Assembly: GCF_009649225.1 (NCBI RefSeq)
Contig: NZ_WJPP01000002.1
Coordinates: 372,001-436,000, forward strand
Length of the DNA: 64,000 bases
DNA from: Spiribacter salilacus
GTDB lineage: Bacteria > Pseudomonadota > Gammaproteobacteria > Nitrococcales > Nitrococcaceae
Direction: 5' to 3'
Positions 8,082-34,165 of the stretch are shown piece after piece. Below the pieces are notes generated by a model. The model was not told the origin of the DNA and made no database searches. It saw only the letters and a list, made by a program, of their open reading frames with translations. Both the position numbers and the translations under genes were made by a program. The stretch's first letter is position 1. Every line of letters starts with the position of its first letter.

Positions 8082-9773
8082 ATGGCCGATAACCGCCGCA
8101 GCCGCGTCGTGACCGAAGGGCTTGCCCGAACTCCTAACCGCGCGATGATGCGGGCTGCTGGGTTTAAGGATGAAGACTTCCAAAAACCCATCGTAGGCGT
8201 TGGTAACGCACACAGCACCATCACCCCCTGCAACATGGGCATCGGCGCACAGGCAGAGCGGGCTACCGATGCACTGCGTAAAGCCGGCGCCATGCCGGTA
8301 AGCTTTGGCACAATCACCATTTCAGACGGCATTTCCATGGGCACCGAGGGCATGAAGTTCTCGCTGGTCTCACGCGAGGTGATTGCTGATTCGATTGAAA
8401 CGGTCTGCAACGGGCAGCGGCTCGATGGCATTTTGGCTACTGGCGGCTGCGATAAAAATATGCCGGGTGCCATGATGGGCATTGCACGGCTGAACATTCC
8501 TGGCATCTTTGTATATGGCGGCACCATTAAGCCTGGGCGCTACAAGGGCAAAGACCTCACCATTGTGAGTGCGTTTGAAGCGGTGGGTGAAGCCGCAGCC
8601 GGCAAGCTCTCAGATGAAGATCTTAAAGGCGTAGAAATGAACGCCTGCCCAGGCGCTGGCTCTTGCGGTGGCATGTATACCGCCAACACCATGTCGAGTG
8701 CGTTTGAGGCCATGGGCATGAGCTTAATGGGCTCCTCCACCGTATCGGCCATTGATGATGAGGCACGCACCGTGGCGGCGCGCTCTGCCGAAGTACTAGT
8801 GGATGCAATTCGTCACCAGCGCCTACCGCGCGACATCATGACCCGTAAGGCATTTGAAAATGCCGTCAGCATTGTCATGGCGCTCGGCGGCTCTACAAAC
8901 GCCGTTTTGCACATGCTAGCCATCGCCAATGTCTGCGAAGTCGAATTTTCAATCGATGATATCGAAATGATTCGTCGCCGTGTGCCCGTGCTTTGTGACC
9001 TCAAGCCTTCTGGCCGCTATGTGACGAGCGAATTCCATGATGTTGGCGGCACACCGCAAGTCATGAAAATGCTGCTCAGCAAAGGCCTGCTGCATGGCGA
9101 TTGTCTTACCATTACCGGGCAAACCATCGAAGAGCTGCTCGCTGATGTGCCGGCAGAGCCCTCTAGCGATCAAGACATCATTCGTACCTTCGATAACCCC
9201 ATGTACCCCGAAGGGCATTTAGCCGTTTTGCGCGGCAATCTGGCCAGCGAAGGTGCCGTTGCCAAGGTCAGCGGCATTAAGCAGCGCCGCATTGAGGGCC
9301 CTGCCCGCGTGTTTGATTCTGAAGAGCTAGCCATGGATGCCATTCTTAGCGACCAAATTCGTGCCGGCGATGTACTGATCATTCGCTATGAGGGGCCAAA
9401 AGGCGGCCCGGGCATGCGCGAAATGCTGGCGCCTACCTCTGCCATTATTGGTCGGGGTTTAGGCGATGCCGTTGGCCTGATTACCGATGGCCGCTTCTCG
9501 GGTGGTACCTATGGCATGGTGGTTGGCCATGTTGCGCCAGAGGCTGCGGTGGGCGGCAATATCGCACTGGTTGAGGAAGGCGATACGGTGGTAATCGATG
9601 CAGATCACAACTTGCTCGAGGTGAAGTTAGACGATGCCACGCTGGCAGAGCGTCGGGCACGCTGGCAGCCTCGTCCGCCCAATTACCCACGCGGCGTACT
9701 CGGCAAATTTGCCAAGTTAGTGAGCTCAGCCAGTTATGGCGCGGTAACTGACAAGGACTTATTTAAAGATTAA
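8082..9773 (+). CDS. ilvD: Dihydroxy-acid dehydratase
   Basis: A 563-residue IlvD/Edd-family enzyme that removes water from 2,3-dihydroxy acids in valine and isoleucine synthesis. Length and cysteine pattern fit the [2Fe-2S] class: Cys50 (ITPCNMG), Cys123 ([12 protein letters not shown]) and Cys195 ([15 protein letters not shown]). The C-terminal half has [19 protein letters not shown] with the proposed catalytic Ser. Ribosome site GAGGAA precedes ATG 8082. It is a single-gene unit whose stop overlaps the convergent sco1 stop inside a TTAA. Confidence 0.97.
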
Positions 9774-10369
9774 CTGCCGCTGATTCGGCGTAAGTCTTCT
9801 GCCATATCGCTAATGGTATCGGCAGGCCGGAAGATGGCTCGGGCGCGGCTCGAGCCATCAAATACATACATCGCGCTGGGGTGCGAGACGTTATAGTTAC
9901 CAAACTGATCAGGCTCATCAAACCCGAATGTGGCCCGATAGCGTTTGGTCATCTCCCGCAGCTCAGGCTCGGTAGCAGTTGCACCAATAATATATTCGCT
10001 AAAAAAATCGGTGTATCGACCCAGCATTTCTGGTGAATCACGGCCCGGATCAACCGAAACGAACAGCACATTCACCTCTTCACCAATCGACTGATCTACC
10101 CGATCTAGCGCTGCGGCCAAGCGCGCCATTGCCGTGGGGCAGACATCAGGGCAATGCGTAAAACCAAAAAACACCACCACAGTAGAGCCTTTTAAATCAG
10201 CCTCAGTAATTCGTTGGCCCGTTTCTGAAACCAAGTCAAACTTAAGATCAGGCAGCAGGCCGTAAACTCCTTTGGTGGCATAGTCGCCACCAATACAGCC
10301 GCTAAGCAGCAACACCAAGGCAAAAGACCCAATCAGCAAACCGCGTTTAAGATGACTAAGACCGGGCAT
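9770..10369 (-). CDS. SCO1/SenC-type copper chaperone, lipoprotein
   Basis: A 199-residue thioredoxin-fold protein that delivers copper to the CuA site of cytochrome oxidase. A lipoprotein signal ends in LLLSGCIGG, so it is anchored on the periplasmic face. The metal/redox site is [13 protein letters not shown] (CxxxC), with the distal His in [12 protein letters not shown] and the conserved [12 protein letters not shown] chose ATG 10369, which puts the signal peptide at the N-terminus. The longer frame to 10417 reads through the end of ctaG. It overlaps ctaG by 14 bases, consistent with one assembly operon. Confidence 0.92.
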
Positions 10370-11183
10370 GCGTTTTCTCCAATCGAAAGGCCAGCACAAT
10401 AATCGCGGCAACCACACTCATCATTGAAGCAGGAATCCAGGTAATCAAACCGCCAATTTGTTGATCCAACAGCGGCGAAATTGGAAACGCTCTGCCACAG
10501 ACATCATAAATATCAAACAGGTTCTGCCGGCTAAAGGTGATGTAGGCGCCCAGCGCAATTTGCGGTGGAATAATCATGCCCAGCAATAAAATACGCTTAC
10601 CAGGGCTTAAGCGTGGCGTAACGCCAGCCCGCCCCCGCTCAAAAATTAGCCACCAAAACAACAGCCCATCAAGGGCCATTGTCCAGTTCATCAGCCAATA
10701 TAAATCGAGGCTGAGCATGGCGTAGAAGTGAATACTGGGCGTGAGCCAAAAATACAAAATGCCCACAAACAAAAATGCCGCCAAAAACGGTTGCTGAATC
10801 CCGTTATAGAGCACCCGCAACACCGAAAAAACTGGCGCTGCTCGGCCCTGCGGCCAAGCCCTAACCGATGCCGGTAACCCCGCTGCCAATACGGCAGCTG
10901 GCATTGATAAGGCCACTAAAAAAGGGCCTAGATGATGCAAGATGAGATGCTGAAAACGATGCGCTGAAAACAAGTACTGCGAGTAGTAGTCAAACTGGGT
11001 TTGGGTTACCACATACATCAGCCCCATACCCAGAAAAAAAGACAGCGCAGGCCAAAACCCGGGCTTAGCCCCCCGCATCATCCCAATTGCATACAAGCTG
11101 ATTGCCGCTGCGCACACGATGATGACCGGGGCCGAAGGCTCCCAGGGGCGCAACCAGTCAATAACCGTATTTAAGGTGACCAT
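10356..11183 (-). CDS. ctaG: Cytochrome c oxidase assembly factor CtaG (caa3 type)
   Basis: A 275-residue membrane protein with about seven hydrophobic segments. It matches the CtaG/YtkA-linked family found in Bacillus and many proteobacteria, which is distinct from Cox11 despite the shared name. Marks include SAHRFQHLILHHLGPFLVAL near residue 75, with the His-rich helix expected to handle copper, and LMNWTMALDGLLFWWLI. It lies between a small unknown gene (5 bases upstream) and sco1 (14-base overlap). In this window it is the only candidate for inserting CuB into the oxidase, since Cox11 is not seen. Confidence 0.9.
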   Translation of the reverse strand: MVTLNTVIDWLRPWEPSAPVIIVCAAAISLYAIGMMRGAKPGFWPALSFFLGMGLMYVVTQTQFDYYSQYLFSAHRFQHLILHHLGPFLVALSMPAAVLAAGLPASVRAWPQGRAAPVFSVLRVLYNGIQQPFLAAFLFVGILYFWLTPSIHFYAMLSLDLYWLMNWTMALDGLLFWWLIFERGRAGVTPRLSPGKRILLLGMIIPPQIALGAYITFSRQNLFDIYDVCGRAFPISPLLDQQIGGLITWIPASMMSVVAAIIVLAFRLEKTHARS

Positions 11184-26600: not shown

Positions 26601-27539
26601 CTAAAAAATCACCGGCAAATAAGCATCCACCAACAAAAACGCAAACAGCGCCATCAAATAATAAATGCTATAACCAAACGAGCGCATGGGCAGCGAGCGA
26701 TCTTGATCCCGAGTCAGCATAACAACGCCAAACCACAAGTAACGTGCACCTAAACCCAACGCCCCAAGTAAATAAACCCAGCCACTCATCCCAGTAACAA
26801 ACGGCAGCACCGACACGCCAACCAGCAAAATCGTGTAGTACAAAATCTGCCAGCGCGTGTATCGATCACCATGCGTGACGGGCAGCATAGGAATGTCGAC
26901 ACTGCGATATTCTTCTTGCCGATGGATGGCCAGCGCCCAGAAATGTGGCGGCGTCCAAACAAAAATAATCAAAAATAAAAGCAAGGCATGAGGATCAATT
27001 GTGCCCGTGACCGCCGCCCAGCCAAGAACGGGGGGTGCCGCGCCCGCTGCTCCACCAATCACAATATTCTGCGGCGTGGCGCGCTTTAAAAACAGCGTAT
27101 AAATAAACGCATAGCCAATTAGCGAAGCAAAGGTGAGCCAGGCCGTTAGCGGATTGACCAAGAAATACAGCACACTTAAACCTGCCGCGCCAATCGTCGC
27201 AGCAAAGATGACCGCATGGCCGGTGCGCAGATGCCCGGTGGGCAATGGCCTTGCCTGGGTGCGCTTCATAATCCCGTCTACACGCCGGTCTACCAAATGG
27301 TTAATGGCCGCAGCAGAACCCGCCGCCAGCGCAATACCGATATTGCCAACAATTAGCGCATTCCAGGGGATGGTGCCGGGGCTTGCAAGCAGCTGACCAA
27401 CAACCGCAGTAAACACCATGAGTGCCACCACACCAGGCTTGGTGAGCTCATAATAATCTCGCCATTGCCGCTGCACATGCTGCAGCAGAGTAGCGGGGCG
27501 CGTACTGGACGCGGTAGATGCCTCGAGCAATCGACTCAT
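26601..27539 (-). CDS. ctaB: Protoheme IX farnesyltransferase (heme O synthase)
   Basis: A 312-residue UbiA-superfamily membrane enzyme that farnesylates heme B to heme O, the precursor of heme A. About nine hydrophobic helices are visible. The first Asp-rich motif is NHLVDRRVDGIMKRTQARPLP near residue 97, and the matching second region is RQEEYRSVDIPMLPV. It starts inside the stop of ctaA (ATGA overlap), so heme O and heme A synthesis are coupled. The gene ends next to the palindrome array. Confidence 0.95.
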   Translation of the reverse strand: MSRLLEASTASSTRPATLLQHVQRQWRDYYELTKPGVVALMVFTAVVGQLLASPGTIPWNALIVGNIGIALAAGSAAAINHLVDRRVDGIMKRTQARPLPTGHLRTGHAVIFAATIGAAGLSVLYFLVNPLTAWLTFASLIGYAFIYTLFLKRATPQNIVIGGAAGAAPPVLGWAAVTGTIDPHALLLFLIIFVWTPPHFWALAIHRQEEYRSVDIPMLPVTHGDRYTRWQILYYTILLVGVSVLPFVTGMSGWVYLLGALGLGARYLWFGVVMLTRDQDRSLPMRSFGYSIYYLMALFAFLLVDAYLPVIF

Positions 27540-28546
27540 GTTCGCCTAATTGGTTGCACTAGATGCACGGCCGTTACCAGCGCCATCATCAGCAGCGCTG
27601 CACCGGCATTGTGCGCGACCGCGATACTCAGAGGCAAGTTGTAGAGCACATTAGCAATGCCTAGGGCAATTTGAGTACCCAGCACCCCTCCGATAACAAT
27701 AGCGATGCTTCGGCCAGCGCTATTTGTGCGCCAAAGCCGCCATAGCAGTAGGGCAAAGACCAGGGTAACCACAATCGCCCCAACTCGATGGACTAAATGA
27801 ATAGCCATGCGCGCGGGATGATCCAAAATACCGAACTCATAGTTCACCCCAAGGCCGCGCCACAACACAAACCCTTCTGAGAAATCGGCGCGCTCTGGCC
27901 AGTACTCACCAAGGCTACAAGTGGGGAATTCGTTACAGGCAAGTGCTGCATAGTTGGTGCTAACCCACCCCCCCAGCGTGATCTGCCCGATGGCGGCAAT
28001 AATCCCTAAGCTGAGCAAAAAGCCAAGCCCGCGCTGTTTAGCTAGCTTGCCTGCACCGCCAAAATAGTTAGAACGCAGAGTTACCCACCATAGCAGCGAC
28101 AACGTGGTCAGCCCGCCAAGCAAATGTGCGGTCACGACCGCCGGCTTAAGCTGCCAAGTGACTGTCCACATGCCCAGTGTGGATTGAAAAATAACCAGCA
28201 CGATAATGAACAACGGCAACTTCCAGGGCTGACCGGCTCGTTTACGCAACTTCCATGCCGCAATGCCCAAGCCCGCAATCAATAGGCCCAGCAAACCTGC
28301 AGCATAACGATGAACCATTTCTCGCCAGCCTTTGCCAATATCAACGGGTGTATCCGGAAAAGCGGCGTTGGCCGCGGCAATTGCCTCTGGCGTGTTCGGT
28401 ACATCCAGATGGCCATAGCAACCTGGCCAGTCGGGGCACCCCAGCCCCGCGTCGGTCAAGCGAACCCAAGCACCCAGCACCACAACGCAGAGCGTGAGCA
28501 GCGTGGCAAACAACGAAGTTCTAAAAAACCAGGGATGCGCGTTCAT
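27536..28546 (-). CDS. ctaA: Heme A synthase (COX15/CtaA)
   Basis: A 336-residue membrane protein with eight predicted helices that oxidises the C8 methyl of heme O to a formyl group. Marks are WVRLTDAGLGCPDWPGCYGHL in the first loop, the heme-ligand His in GWREMVHRYAAGLLG, the second His region in VVTAHLLGGLTTLS, and the C-terminal half HLVHRVGAIVVTL. Length and motif order fit the proteobacterial COX15-like group. It overlaps the neighbouring genes by four bases at both ends. Confidence 0.95.
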   Translation of the reverse strand: MNAHPWFFRTSLFATLLTLCVVVLGAWVRLTDAGLGCPDWPGCYGHLDVPNTPEAIAAANAAFPDTPVDIGKGWREMVHRYAAGLLGLLIAGLGIAAWKLRKRAGQPWKLPLFIIVLVIFQSTLGMWTVTWQLKPAVVTAHLLGGLTTLSLLWWVTLRSNYFGGAGKLAKQRGLGFLLSLGIIAAIGQITLGGWVSTNYAALACNEFPTCSLGEYWPERADFSEGFVLWRGLGVNYEFGILDHPARMAIHLVHRVGAIVVTLVFALLLWRLWRTNSAGRSIAIVIGGVLGTQIALGIANVLYNLPLSIAVAHNAGAALLMMALVTAVHLVQPIRRT

Positions 28547-29133: not shown

Positions 29134-29886
29134 TTAACTTTTATTCCTTGGCTGGCGCCGTTTGGTATTGACCACAAGCCAAATAACGGTAAGGGCTGCG
29201 GCCATTGAAAACCATTGAAACGCATATCCTTCATGCCGCTCAGGGCCATATCGCCACGCCTCACGACCAGTGCGCTCGATGCGTGGTGCTAAGTCCAGCG
29301 ATCCTTCGATCAATAACTGACCGGCCAGTAACGGGTAGGGAGTTTGCGAGTCGAAATACTCGTAATCAAGGTACTGCACGCGACGCGGCCATTCACCCGC
29401 ATTGTCACTGGGCTCACCTAACTGCATTGCAACGGTGGGGCGTGGGGCAATTTGCCCCGTCACGGTTTGCTCGGGCTGCTCGATGACAACGGCAGGCAGC
29501 TGACGGCGATCATCACCGACAGGCAGAAAACCTCGATCAACCAATACCGCCTGATCCTGACCTTCAATCCGCAGCGGCACAAGCCAGCGATAACCCACTT
29601 CACTATCCTCTACTTGGTTATCCAGTAAAAACTGCCGCTGTGTATCATATACGCCAGTGGCACGAGCCCTGCGAAATTCAAAAGCTGCTAAGCCAGACTC
29701 AGCGGGCTTATCATTTAAAGAAACCACCGGAGCCTCAATAGCCGCTGCTCTGTGAGCAAGCTCGGTATGCTTTTGTTCCGCCCGATCAAGCTGCCAAACC
29801 CCAAGGAAGATCAAAAACATCAGCATGACCAGATAACCAAGCGTGGGGAGCAGCGGCGGTGCAAACTGGAAACTACCGATGTGCAT
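29134..29886 (-). CDS. SURF1 family oxidase assembly protein
   Basis: A 250-residue protein with two membrane helices: one at residues 15-31 ending in FLGVWQLDRAEQK, and one at the C-terminus (WFSMAAALTVIWLVVNTKR). The large periplasmic part has GYRWLVPLRIEG, VLVDRGFLPVG and RHEGYAFQWF, the SURF1 signature. SURF1 helps place heme A into subunit I. It is the first gene of the minus-strand unit SURF1, SCO-like protein, ctaA, ctaB. It diverges from the small DUF2909 gene. Confidence 0.93.
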   Translation of the reverse strand: MHIGSFQFAPPLLPTLGYLVMLMFLIFLGVWQLDRAEQKHTELAHRAAAIEAPVVSLNDKPAESGLAAFEFRRARATGVYDTQRQFLLDNQVEDSEVGYRWLVPLRIEGQDQAVLVDRGFLPVGDDRRQLPAVVIEQPEQTVTGQIAPRPTVAMQLGEPSDNAGEWPRRVQYLDYEYFDSQTPYPLLAGQLLIEGSLDLAPRIERTGREAWRYGPERHEGYAFQWFSMAAALTVIWLVVNTKRRQPRNKS

Positions 29887-29952: not shown

Positions 29953-30171
29953 ATGGACCTCGCCATACGCATTGCCATCGCAACAACCATTTTGATCATT
30001 ATTGCGAGCCTTGGTTCAAGCCTATTTTATTTGATCAAAGATCGCGGCCAAACCAATCGCACACTCAATGCACTGAAAGTTAGAATCGTCTTGTCGGTTA
30101 CGCTGTTTTTGCTAATTTTGCTGGGCTTTTTCACAGGTGTCATCACCCCAAATGGCAGCCCGCTTAACTAG
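29953..30171 (+). CDS. DUF2909 twin-helix membrane protein
   Basis: A 72-residue protein of two membrane helices (residues 6-26 and 44-64) with a short charged loop holding IKDRGQTNRTLNALKVRI. This fits DUF2909, which is regularly found beside SURF1 and coxC in gammaproteobacteria. Its role in the oxidase is unproven. It is the only plus-strand gene inside the oxidase region and ends 6 bases from the convergent coxC stop. AAGGAAG precedes ATG 29953. Confidence 0.85.
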   Translation: MDLAIRIAIATTILIIIASLGSSLFYLIKDRGQTNRTLNALKVRIVLSVTLFLLILLGFFTGVITPNGSPLN

Positions 30172-30177
30172 CTGTCG

Positions 30178-31038
30178 CTACATAATGTAGACAAACACGT
30201 ACAGCCCCAGCCAGACCACATCAACAAAGTGCCAATACCAGGCGGTTGCCTCATAACCGAAATGAGAGTCTGCCTCGAAATGCCCTTTCATACAGCGCAG
30301 CGTGATAACGATCAGCATAATCGTGCCAAGCAAAACGTGCACACCGTGAAAACCGGTCAGCATGAAGAACGTAGAGCCGTAAATACCCGTATCTAAACGT
30401 AAATTCAGATGCGCATAGGCTTCGTAATACTCATAAGCCTGCAAACAAATAAAAGCTAGACCCAGCGCAATCGTCATCCACATAAAGGTGATCAAGCGAC
30501 GGCGATTGTTCTCTTTAAGCGCATGATGAGCAACGGTGAGCGTAACGCCAGAGGTGAGCAGGATTAGGGTGTTAATTGTAGGCAGCGGCCAGGGCCCCAT
30601 CGGCTTCCAGTCAAGACCCAAATTGCCAGGGCCTGCCGTTGGCCAGGCCAGCAAAGCCGAATCCCAAAGCACTCGGCTGGTGGCCGGATCTTCACCGCCA
30701 AGCCATGGCACCGACAAAAAGCGCGCATAAAAAAGCGCGCCAAAAAAGGCGCCAAAAAACATAATTTCAGAGAAAATAAACCAAATCATGCCCCAGCGAA
30801 GAGAGCGATCTACCTGCGCGCTGTAAAGGCCGCCCACACTTTCGCGGATCACATCAGCAAACCAGCCCCACACCATGTAGATCAGAAGCGCACCGCCGGC
30901 CCCCATTACCCACAAGCCTAGCCCCATGCCCTCTAAGTAAAGCGCAATGCCAATAACCAGTGAGGTAAGCCCAACACTGCCGATGATCGGCCAGTTACTG
31001 CCGTGGGGTACGTAATATCCGCTCTCTGCTTGCGCCAT
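30178..31038 (-). CDS. ctaE: Cytochrome c oxidase subunit III
   Basis: A 286-residue seven-helix protein. Marks are the N-terminal YYVPHGSNWPIIGSVGL, WFADVIRES, the phospholipid-binding Glu/His stretch FIFSEIMFFGAFFGALFY, TGFHGVHVLLGTIML, and the end YWHFVDVVWLGLYVFVYIM. Subunit III stabilises the core oxidase and guides oxygen. It is the last gene of the coxB-coxA-coxC unit, after a 33-base gap from the small 39-residue gene. Confidence 0.96.
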   Translation of the reverse strand: MAQAESGYYVPHGSNWPIIGSVGLTSLVIGIALYLEGMGLGLWVMGAGGALLIYMVWGWFADVIRESVGGLYSAQVDRSLRWGMIWFIFSEIMFFGAFFGALFYARFLSVPWLGGEDPATSRVLWDSALLAWPTAGPGNLGLDWKPMGPWPLPTINTLILLTSGVTLTVAHHALKENNRRRLITFMWMTIALGLAFICLQAYEYYEAYAHLNLRLDTGIYGSTFFMLTGFHGVHVLLGTIMLIVITLRCMKGHFEADSHFGYEATAWYWHFVDVVWLGLYVFVYIM

Positions 31039-31071: not shown

Positions 31072-31191
31072 CTATAACCGATCGAGGAAAACCCCAAAAT
31101 AAATTCCCAGCACGACTAGGACTAATAAAAACACCGTCCAGCGGATGCCGCGACGCGCGCGGCGATCTGCCTTTTCATTAATGATCTTCAA
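31072..31191 (-). CDS. 39-residue single-helix membrane protein between coxA and coxC
   Basis: A short frame starting at TTG 31191, the base directly after the coxA stop (TGATTG), and ending TAG at 31072. It encodes MKIINEKADRRARRGIR, then a hydrophobic helix WTVFLLVLVVLGIYFGVFL and DRL. A basic cytosolic end and one membrane helix resemble the small oxidase assembly proteins of betaproteobacteria and the N-terminal anchor of Cox11, which often occupies this place. No Cox11 gene is present here. The start codon is inferred from the join to coxA; an overlapping ATG is in another frame. Confidence 0.65.
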   Translation of the reverse strand: MKIINEKADRRARRGIRWTVFLLVLVVLGIYFGVFLDRL

Positions 31192-32766
31192 TCAGCGCAC
31201 CACCGGTGGGGTATCAAACGTATGATGCGGCGCCGGTGATGGCACTTCCCACTCAAGGCCTTCAGCGCCCTCCCATGCACGCGCTTCAGCCTTTTCGCCA
31301 CCACGAATGCACTTAATTAACAGCCAAACAAAGATTAGCTGAGAAAAGCCAAAGGCAAAGCCGCCAATACTAGAAATCATGTTCCAGTCTGCAAACTGCA
31401 CTGAGTAGTCGGGAATACGCCGTGGCATGCCCGCCAGACCCAAGAAGTGCTGCGGGAAAAACAGTACGTTGACCGAGATGGTGGACAGCCAAAAATGCGC
31501 CTTACCCAGTCGCTCGCTATACATATGCCCCGTCCACTTAGGCAGCCAGTAATAAGCCGCTGCCAAAATGGCAAACACAGCGCCAGTTACCAGCACATAG
31601 TGGAAGTGAGCCACCACAAAATAAGTGTCGTGATACTGATAATCAGCAGGCGCGATGGCCAACATCAGCCCAGAGAACCCACCAATGGTGAACAAAAACA
31701 CAAACGCCAATGCAAACAGCATGGGTGTTTCGAAGGTCATGGCGCCCCGCCACATCGTAGCCACCCAGTTAAACACCTTTACGCCGGTTGGCACTGCGAT
31801 CAGCATGGTGGCGTACATAAAGAACAGCTGCCCCGCTAACGGCATACCCACCGTAAACATGTGGTGAGCCCACACGATGAACGACAAGAATGCGATAGAG
31901 GCCGTTGCATATACCATTGAGCTGTAGCCAAACAGCGGCTTACGCGCAAAGGCAGGAATGATGGTGGAAACAATACCGAACGCCGGGAGGATTAGGATAT
32001 AAACCTCGGGGTGCCCGAAGAACCAAAAGATGTGCTGATAGAGCACCGGATCACCACCACCGGCCGCACTAAAGAACGTGGTGCCAAAGTACTGATCGGT
32101 TAGCAGCATGGTGATGGCGCCAGCCAGCACCGGCATAACGGCAATCATCAAATAGGCCGTGATCAACCAAGTCCAAACGAAGAGCGGCATCTTCATGAGG
32201 GTCATGCCCGGTGCGCGCATATTCAAGATGGTGGCTACCACGTTAATGGAACCCATGATCGAGCTAATGCCAAGAATATGAATCGCAAAAATGACGAATG
32301 GGAACGCAGTACCCGTTTGCAGCATCAGCGGTGGGTACATCGTCCAGCCGCCGGCTGGGCCGCCACCCGGCATAAAGAGCGTTGAAAGCAGAACGGCAAA
32401 CCCGAAGGGCAGCAGCCAGAAGCTCCAGTTGTTCATTCGTGGCAGGGCCATGTCTGGCGCCCCCACCATTAATGGAATCATCCAGTTAGCCAAGCCCGTA
32501 AAGGCTGGCATAACCGCACCAAAAATCATGACCAACGCATGCATGGTGGTCATTTGGTTAAAGAAGTACGGATCGACAAGCTGTAAGCCAGGCTGAAAAA
32601 GTTCTGCTCGAATTACCAAAGCCATGGCGCCACCCACAAGGAACATGGCCAGCGAAAACAACAAGTACATCGAGCCGATGTCTTTATGGTTTGTTGTTAC
32701 CAGCCAGCGCTTAAAACCCGTGGCTTCAGCAGCGTGATGGGCATGATCATGCGTTGTTGCGGTCAT
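31192..32766 (-). CDS. ctaD: Cytochrome c oxidase subunit I (aa3 type)
   Basis: A 524-residue heme-copper oxidase subunit with twelve helices. Heme and copper ligands are visible in [12 protein letters not shown] (low-spin heme His), [15 protein letters not shown] (CuB His with the cross-linked Tyr four residues on), WAHHMFTVG (two CuB His) and [12 protein letters not shown] (heme a3 and heme a His). The K- and D-channel segments look normal for an A-type enzyme. ATG 32766 follows a GAGGGAGACGGG ribosome site; a TTG six codons earlier overlaps that site and is less likely. Confidence 0.97.
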
Positions 32767-32795
32767 TGATCCCGTCTCCCTCAAAAGACTTTGTA

Positions 32796-33641
32796 TTAAC
32801 GAGATGCCACGGCATCTGATGCTTCGTCAGCGGATGAACCTTCGCGCTGTGCCATTAGCCAGGTCTCAAATTCATCCTTCTCTACAGCTTCTATCACAAT
32901 AGGCATAAAGCCGTGGTCTCGGCCACACAGCTCCGCGCAGCGCCCGCGATAAATACCTGGCTCATCAATTTGCGTCCATGTTTCGTTCACAAACCCAGGA
33001 ATAGCGTCTCGCTTCCAGCCAAAGTCAGGCACCCACCAGCTGTGAATGACATCGGCAGCGGTGATTTGAAAGCGGATGCGTGTATCTACCGGTAATACCA
33101 ATCGGTTATCAACATTCTCTAAATAGTACGGCACCGAAGCTGGCGAAACGCCCGAGCCAAGCTGCCGGGCCCGGTCACTTTCGACATCTAGACGGCTTAA
33201 AAACTGCACGTCTTCATCGATGTATTCATAACCCCAAAACCACTGATAACCGGTGACTTTGACGGTCATCTCAGAGCCCGTGGTGTCGTTAATATCAATC
33301 AGCACCCGCGTTGCCGGAATAGCCATACCCACCAGAATTGCCAGTGGGATAATCGTCCACACAATTTCTACCGCGGTGCTGTGATGAAACTTAGCAGGTT
33401 TAACACCGCGAGATTTACGATGCCGGATGATGGAATAGAACATCGCGCCAAAAACTAAAACACCGATAACCACAGTAATCCAGAAAATGGTCATATGCAG
33501 ACCATAAACCTGGTTACTCATATCGGTAACACCTTGGGTCATATTCAGCAGCGAGAGATCTGCCAGCGCAGGCCCTGCCATAAATAGTAACGCCAGCGCT
33601 AACACGCTCTTTTGGCATTGTTTGCCAATACGCATCATCAT
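32796..33641 (-). CDS. ctaC: Cytochrome c oxidase subunit II
   Basis: A 281-residue protein with a signal peptide ([16 protein letters not shown]), two membrane helices and a periplasmic cupredoxin domain. The CuA ligands are His in [11 protein letters not shown] and the cluster [14 protein letters not shown]. The aromatic electron-entry stretch is YQWFWGYEY. No cytochrome c domain is fused. Three ATG codons in a row (33641, 33638, 33635) are possible starts; the third has the best spacing to the AGG site, while the first overlaps the DUF2244 stop by four bases. Confidence 0.95.
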
Positions 33642-34165
33642 CCTGCTTTTTCTCCCAATGTTCTAAACAAGGTGCCACCGCATCGTGCCATCGGTCCGAT
33701 ACATCCTTTTAGTTCACGCGCCAGGCTCAGCCGTTCATCCGGATCTAAGAAGCTGCCTAGTGTAACCTCTCGATCGCGTGAGCGCAGAACTAACTGTGTT
33801 TCATCCCATCGGCGTGATAGCCGTCGCAATTCTACCTGCGTCCACGCTCGCTCCATCTCGTAGGCCTGCTCAACCCGGCCACGACCCTTTTCGATACGGA
33901 TATTGTTATCCGTTACGTTAATCACTTCTCTATCGAGCGAGCGCCGTGCAGACACATACAGCGCTGCACCCAGCGCCAAGACTTCTAACCCCGCGAAGGT
34001 CAAGATGGGCCATAGCCCGCAAGCGGCACAAACCACACCAATTCCTAAGCACACCGCACTTAGCCCAATGAAAATGCGCACCGTTTGCGGCCAGTTAGGC
34101 GCAATATTTGGTGCCAGCACAAAGCGCCGGCCTGCTAGCGAATCGGTTGAAGCCTGTGTTGTCAT
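33638..34165 (-). CDS. DUF2244 membrane protein, first gene of the oxidase operon
   Basis: A 175-residue protein with two membrane helices (about residues 30-68, IFIGLSAVCLGIGVVCAACG and the following LTFAGLEVLALGAALYV), then a soluble part with WTQVELRRLSRRWDETQLVLRSR. This is the DUF2244 layout, and such genes are often found with cytochrome oxidase genes. Molecular role unknown. It begins 26 bases after an FNR-type palindrome and overlaps coxB by up to four bases. Confidence 0.85.
   Translation of the reverse strand: MTTQASTDSLAGRRFVLAPNIAPNWPQTVRIFIGLSAVCLGIGVVCAACGLWPILTFAGLEVLALGAALYVSARRSLDREVINVTDNNIRIEKGRGRVEQAYEMERAWTQVELRRLSRRWDETQLVLRSRDREVTLGSFLDPDERLSLARELKGCIGPMARCGGTLFRTLGEKAG

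Follow-up and report, generated by a model that had tools for sequence, protein, structure and literature searches.

The window analysed here is a stretch of 64,000 nucleotides of the Spiribacter salilacus genome, and its cytochrome c oxidase cluster raises the question of what is encoded between coxA and coxC, at the place where Cox11, the CuB-inserting factor, would be expected. A first-pass annotation, made from the letters alone, had found a short frame there and had left two readings of it: a leftover Cox11 anchor, or a working assembly factor which automated gene finders would miss because of its size and start codon.

The small frame and its conservation

The frame (Table 1) runs from a TTG at 31191-31189 to a TAG stop at 31074-31072, and its product has 39 residues, MKIINEKADRRARRGIRWTVFLLVLVVLGIYFGVFLDRL. 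The coxA stop ends at the base immediately before the TTG, as first described, and coxC starts 33 bases past the end of the frame; the strand, minus, had not been given in the first description. The description of the product as a basic end plus one membrane helix also held: the sequence, together with a single-sequence AlphaFold2 model with one helix over residues 3-38 (mean pLDDT 82), supports a predicted basic N-terminus followed by one long hydrophobic membrane helix.

Table 1. Positions of the small frame and of the oxidase-related features in the window
Feature	Coordinates	Strand	Remarks
Predicted small single-helix membrane protein gene, putatively Coa3-like	31072..31191	-	39 codons, TTG start; homologues in 22/22 family loci
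coxA, cytochrome c oxidase subunit I	31192..32784	-	stop abuts small gene
coxC, subunit III	30178..31038	-	label assumed
coxB, subunit II	32796..33641	-	label assumed
surf1-like gene	29134..29886	-	label assumed
Heme A synthase-like gene (cox15/ctaA)	27536..28546	-	label assumed
Heme O synthase-like gene (ctaB/cox10)	26601..27539	-	label assumed; finds ctaB of second-class cox loci
Caa3_CtaG, presumed CuB assembly protein replacing Cox11	10356..11183	-	PF09678, E 1.3e-47
Sco-like protein adjoining CtaG	9770..10417	-	label assumed
GGTGG, possible weak ribosome-binding-site-like stretch within last coxA codons	31200..31204	-	read from sequence

The labels coxC, coxB, surf1-like, cox15/ctaA-like, ctaB/cox10-like and Sco-like in Table 1 are those that we take these genes to carry. 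Since the GGTGG stretch upstream of the TTG also codes for the C-terminus of CoxA, its conservation proves nothing. Two further frames were seen in the neighbourhood. One is read from the plus strand, against the oxidase genes, in the gap between coxC and surf1 (29953-30171); it has 72 residues with two hydrophobic stretches and presumably resembles DUF2909. The other, immediately upstream of coxB (33638-34165, minus), encodes 175 residues like those of a membrane protein, which we take to be DUF2244-like.

To follow the small frame among close relatives, 23 genomes of the family, that of the window included, were compared. A coxC match was obtained in 22 of them (G015 had none), and a homologous frame was present between coxA and coxC in all 22 loci. 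These 22 frames form the set A1, from which G015 was left out and in which several starts were set by hand. The coxA-coxC gaps of the 22 loci measure 144-320 bases and therefore leave no room for Cox11. Four positions are invariant, namely R14, R17, T19 and Y31. Over a 28-codon core, the dN/dS of the window copy against 13 relatives was 0.04-0.14 (11 pairs with unsaturated dS). Moreover, the pooled pN/pS of 14 sequences was 0.23 in the true frame, the differences being mostly synonymous, and the synonymous excess was gone in both shifted frames. The small frame is a real gene under purifying selection, and the conservation by synonymous and non-synonymous changes that the first-pass annotation had proposed to look for is thus present.

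The CoxA proteins of the 12 congener loci (L002-L013) are 91-98% identical to that of the window over the part present in the loci. In 11 of these 12, the first codon of the small frame is an ATG that lies one or two codons downstream of the window's start, at a place where the window has AAG or ATC; the frame of L006 starts with TTG, as in the window. The start codon of the window copy differs from that of most congeners while the frame is intact, and the TTG appears a plausible start from the sequence.

Relatives in other Pseudomonadota and the copper factors

The comparison was extended with the best 80 of 587 loci from a CoxC scan (the named loci), which are mostly beta- and gammaproteobacterial by title. 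In 67 of the 80, the coxA stop is followed, before cox11 or coxC, by a one-helix small frame of 31-62 residues (82 residues in L080 before trimming). These 67 frames make up the set A2, in which the N-termini of L065, L070, L072 and L080 were trimmed by hand. By the rule applied here, the small frame is absent from 13 loci, including those of Pseudomonas, Marinobacter and Pseudoalteromonas type. The comparison with pseudomonads made in the first-pass annotation fits poorly, the Pseudomonas-type loci L060, L062, L076, L105 and L109 having Cox11 and no small frame by this rule. Two titles look wrong, as an impression: L071 is titled 'Bacillus subtilis SK7B5', yet has a proteobacterial-type cox locus with Cox11, and L076 is titled 'Pantoea sp. 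Cy-639', yet its cox locus is like those of Pseudomonas. Furthermore, a second small frame of about 68-86 residues was seen between cox11 and coxC in the Nitrosomonas-type loci L037, L042, L045-L047, L049, L055, L061 and L063, which we take to be DUF2970-like.

A second class of genomes, whose gene order suggests that they are Alphaproteobacteria, was sampled by Cox11: a search of 289 genomes was made and the 30 loci with the best matches were taken, which were therefore not picked for a small frame. A small frame stands directly before cox11 in all 30 of them and makes up the set A4, the frame next to cox11 being taken by eye where there were several. As ctaB precedes it in 29 loci, the slot lies between ctaB and cox11 in this class and after coxA in the class of the window. 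In hhalign comparisons, A1 matched A2 with a probability of 97.4% (E 1.3e-11), A4 matched A2 with 96.3% (E 1.5e-9), and A4 matched A1 with 78% (E 1.9e-5). These matches are best explained if the window frame is one member of a group of small proteins, each with a single helix, whose genes accompany those of the aa3-type oxidase in many Pseudomonadota.

Part of this group already bears a name: 39 of the 67 A2 frames match, at E<=0.1, the NCBI model NF038351 (cyt_ox_assem_30, 'cytochrome oxidase small assembly protein'). The window protein gave no match to it at E<=10 (cut-off 27.5 bits not reached), none of the 22 family members matched it at E<=1, and no Pfam or NCBIfam model names the window protein directly with a match above its cut-off. 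Since the family aligns with the A2 frames and 39 of these match the model, we infer that it is a divergent branch of the NCBI-named group. The phrase 'oxidase small assembly protein' was found in none of the open-licence papers searched.

The copper factors were followed in the same genomes. A search for Cox11 (PF04442) gave no match in any of the 23 family genomes, including that of the window (99.99% complete), so that the absence of Cox11, first noticed in the cluster, extends to the whole genome. Caa3_CtaG (PF09678) matches in 22 of the 23, the exception being a genome that is 74% complete. The match in the window spans 10392-11096 on the minus strand (G000:C11:382392-383096), beside the presumably Sco-like frame, which agrees with the caa3-type CtaG and Sco that had been pointed out earlier. 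The two frames lie together at 9770-11183, about 19 kb from coxC. In 11 of the 12 congeners with both matches, the distance from CtaG to coxC is shorter, about 7-10 kb (in G019, CtaG is on another contig), and the oxidase and CtaG clusters therefore seem to travel together.

In at least 51 of the 67 named loci, the small frame adjoins a Cox11 recognised by its motif and having its own anchor. It is also kept in genomes without a Cox11 match, namely those of the window's family, G836 (same class), G543 and G633 (second class), and the two that contain L094 and L107. All of these genomes carry Caa3_CtaG, except one incomplete family genome, which likewise has no coxC match; in the genome of L096, Cox11 is present and CtaG gave no match. 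Since the small frame persists where Cox11 is lost, the small protein goes with CoxA and not with a particular copper factor. Its occurrence is independent of Cox11, and the Cox11-less family separates its role from copper insertion by Cox11. The link is not absolute, because L098 (titled Marinobacter pelagius) has only 68 bases between coxA and coxC and lacks both Cox11 and the small frame, with Caa3_CtaG elsewhere in its genome.

Resemblance to mitochondrial Coa3

A Pfam scan covering 24,736 families was run on the three sets. The family matched by most A2 members was Coa3_cc (PF09813, mitochondrial Cox1-assembly factor 3; gathering cut-off 27 bits), with 13/67 at E<=0.1 and a best E of 2.5e-8 (L096), followed by DUF485 with 7. 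Coa3_cc came first in A4 as well (14/30 at E<=0.1; next family 4) and in A1 (10/22 at E<=0.1, best E 0.0036), in which DUF2273 was a close second (7/22). Two relatives scored above the cut-off, L096 with 33.9 bits and G881 with 27.1 bits. When A2 and A4 were combined, 27 of the 97 real frames matched, versus 1 of 97 copies shuffled within segments, and the Cox11 anchors taken as a control matched in 2 of 44 cases at E<=0.1. The window protein itself gave no Coa3_cc match at E<=10 and did not reach the Pfam cut-off; its best Pfam match was DUF2273 (E 0.0094).

The search with Coa3_cc was also run over 398 genomes of the phylum. At E<=0.01, it found eight places in eight genomes and none in 14 control genomes, and six of the eight places fall in the small frame of a cox operon. 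At E<=0.1, the second class gave 61 places in 56 of 289 genomes, of which 3 are Cox11 anchors and at least 20 belong to the small frame; the window's class gave 53 places in 48 of 274 genomes, with 2 in Cox11 anchors and 14 in the small frame. One of these places, that of G881, scores above the Pfam cut-off. The Cox11-anchor places are left out of the small-frame counts, for which the Cox11 places of genomes with Coa3_cc places (26 and 18) were entered and the reading frames were compared by hand, the second-class count being a lower bound. Most of the class-wide places at E<=0.1 lie outside cox operons, 3 of the 14 control genomes match too, and a genome-wide search misses most small frames, whose scores are too low. 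The slot takes up a few hundred out of several million bases, so that by a hand estimate chance would place far fewer than one match there. Over the family's own genomes at E<=10, the search was noisy, with matches in 10 of 14 control genomes, and was not counted as evidence.

Most bacterial matches end at position 29-36 of the 48 positions of the profile, that of G363 reaching 46 and that of one family member examined reaching 29; human COA3 extends to 48 and a sequence taken for yeast Coa3 to 37. The C-terminal part of the profile past the helix has no counterpart in the window protein, which ends 8 residues after Y31. As a mark of membership, this C-terminal extent is weak.

The reciprocal test was made with a sequence taken for human COA3, which scores 72.3 bits to Coa3_cc. 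The A2 profile found it at E 1.1e-5, and the A4 profile at E 3.6e-4, ranked first (set of 3243 frames). With both, human COA3 stood above every decoy save cox small frames and Cox11 anchors. Some Cox11 anchors equalled it on a pooled profile (best E 2.3e-6), and an hhalign comparison of A2 with a set of Cox11 anchors (A3, 44 of 63 extracted and thinned by hand) gave 94%; part of the signal may therefore be the shared pattern of a basic stretch plus a helix. Several Cox11 anchors among loci L031-L110 score on the small-frame profile, and the resemblance between small frame and anchor would be explained either by common descent or by a docking site on CoxA that both use. Human COA3 was missed by the Cox11-anchor profile (E 30). 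It was missed by the A1 profile as well (E 690), so that the link between the window and Coa3 is indirect, through relatives. No bacterial profile found the yeast Coa3 sequence at a meaningful E (best 270), and no solved Coa3 chain was found in the PDB with the human sequence used here.

In the alignment, Y31 of the window protein falls on Y72 of this human sequence. This column holds Y in 22/22 of A1, and Y or F in 57/67 of A2 and in 30/30 of A4, and the window protein has the basic stretch, the single helix and the conserved tyrosine of Coa3. Y72C in COA3, together with a truncated second allele, has been reported for a patient who showed loss of both COX1 and COX14 (PMC11011759).

The wider group has a profile-level resemblance to Coa3. 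As to its origin, it is possible, and we propose it tentatively, that mitochondrial Coa3 descends from the cox-operon small frame of bacteria or is its sister. Mitochondria would then have inherited an assembly helix that binds CoxA together with the operon and later extended it, and its role would be older than, and independent of, the partnership with Cox11. That the small cox protein is real and its likeness to Coa3 a convergence, such as any basic end plus helix with an aromatic residue might reach, is a somewhat doubtful account which still deserves weight; it concerns ancestry only and fits either function considered below. The missing Coa3_cc match of the window protein, the partial matches of Cox11 anchors and the many scores below the cut-off are what convergence would lead one to expect. 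However, it would hardly yield the ratio of real to shuffled matches, the two scores above the cut-off, or genome-wide searches that lead back to the cox operon. The published distribution of COA3 speaks against a simple descent story: it is marked 'n.d.' for Andalucia godoyi (PMC7050145), and plants are given no entry (PMC5877523).

A 2019 review describes both Cox14 and Coa3 as 'not present in bacteria' (PMC6696091), and the word Coa3 is absent from the main text of a 2022 review of bacterial oxidase assembly proteins (PMC9145763). Among the matches listed from the open-licence literature, no title or abstract start names a bacterial Coa3. In mitochondria, Coa3 couples Cox1 synthesis to assembly, and COA3 is mutated in a human oxidase deficiency (PMC11011759). 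A counterpart in the cox operon, if true, would give Coa3 an origin and make its function studiable in tractable bacteria.

Proposed function and comparison with known systems

We consider it fairly probable, judging from sequence, that the gene is functional and that its product is a Coa3-like early assembly factor of CoxA; of the two readings left by the first-pass annotation, the working assembly factor is thus the better one, and the gene it flagged as easily missed is real. The small protein would probably be translated straight after CoxA and may insert with its basic end in the cytoplasm and its one helix in the membrane. There, it could pack on newly made CoxA and hold it ready for the insertion of heme A and copper (CuB), as Coa3 does for Cox1 in mitochondria. 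It would cooperate with the CuB factor that the genome provides, which is Cox11 in most relatives and Caa3_CtaG in the window genome. The topology, the binding to CoxA, the assembly role and the common ancestry with Coa3 are each what we infer. In yeast, Cox14 and Coa3 are described as Cox1 chaperones that remain bound after insertion (PMC5877523).

A rival reading, which seems to us rather unlikely but deserves serious attention, makes the product a small component that stays in the oxidase for good, as subunit IIa does in the B-type oxidases and subunit IV in some aa3 enzymes of bacteria. At E<=0.1, the Pfam listings for A1, A2 and A4 do not include the aa3 oxidase subunit IV family, presumably PF07835. 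A profile search of the PDB gave no convincing relative, its sole listed match being an ATP synthase b subunit (E 0.41), and the 13 of 80 loci that have no small frame by the rule have the same kind of CoxC. On the other side, the size, the one helix, the gene abutting coxA and the retention without Cox11 fit a subunit equally well, and there is a precedent in subunit IIa of Aquifex, which has 41 residues and had been overlooked (PMC3128077).

The leftover membrane anchor of a decayed Cox11, the other reading of the first-pass annotation, draws on the absence of Cox11 from its expected place and has become very improbable: the small frame coexists with anchored Cox11 in at least 51/67 relatives and stands beside cox11 in 30/30 second-class loci, A1 scarcely matches the Cox11 anchors (hhalign, A1 versus A3: probability 7%, E 0.005) against 97.4% to the small frames, and the frame is under purifying selection. 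A spurious open frame arisen by chance, for which the shortness and the TTG start might speak, can practically be dismissed with conservation in 22/22 family loci and a dN/dS of about 0.1.

Among known systems, the N-terminal anchor of Cox11 shares with the small protein a single N-terminal helix and the operon, and the 67 A2 frames as a set resemble it. However, the small frame has no copper domain and no 'VPLY...C' motif, it occurs together with Cox11 in relatives, and the family of the window stands apart from the anchors. With subunit IIa of the B-type oxidases, it has in common a length of about 40 residues, one helix and an overlooked gene (PMC3128077); the likeness is by description only, and subunit IIa belongs to a different type of oxidase. 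The NF038351 group differs in that its model does not recognise the window's family, from which Cox11 is absent. Nevertheless, the slot directly downstream of coxA, the size and the plan are shared, and the family aligns with the set that contains the matches of the model. As for Coa3 (COA3, MITRAC12, Cox25), the bacterial small proteins are shorter and the window protein alone falls below detection; since it fails the Pfam cut-off, we call it Coa3-like and not a member of Coa3. The two have in common a basic stretch, one helix and an aromatic residue at the place of human Y72, and each goes with its own subunit I, Cox1 or CoxA.
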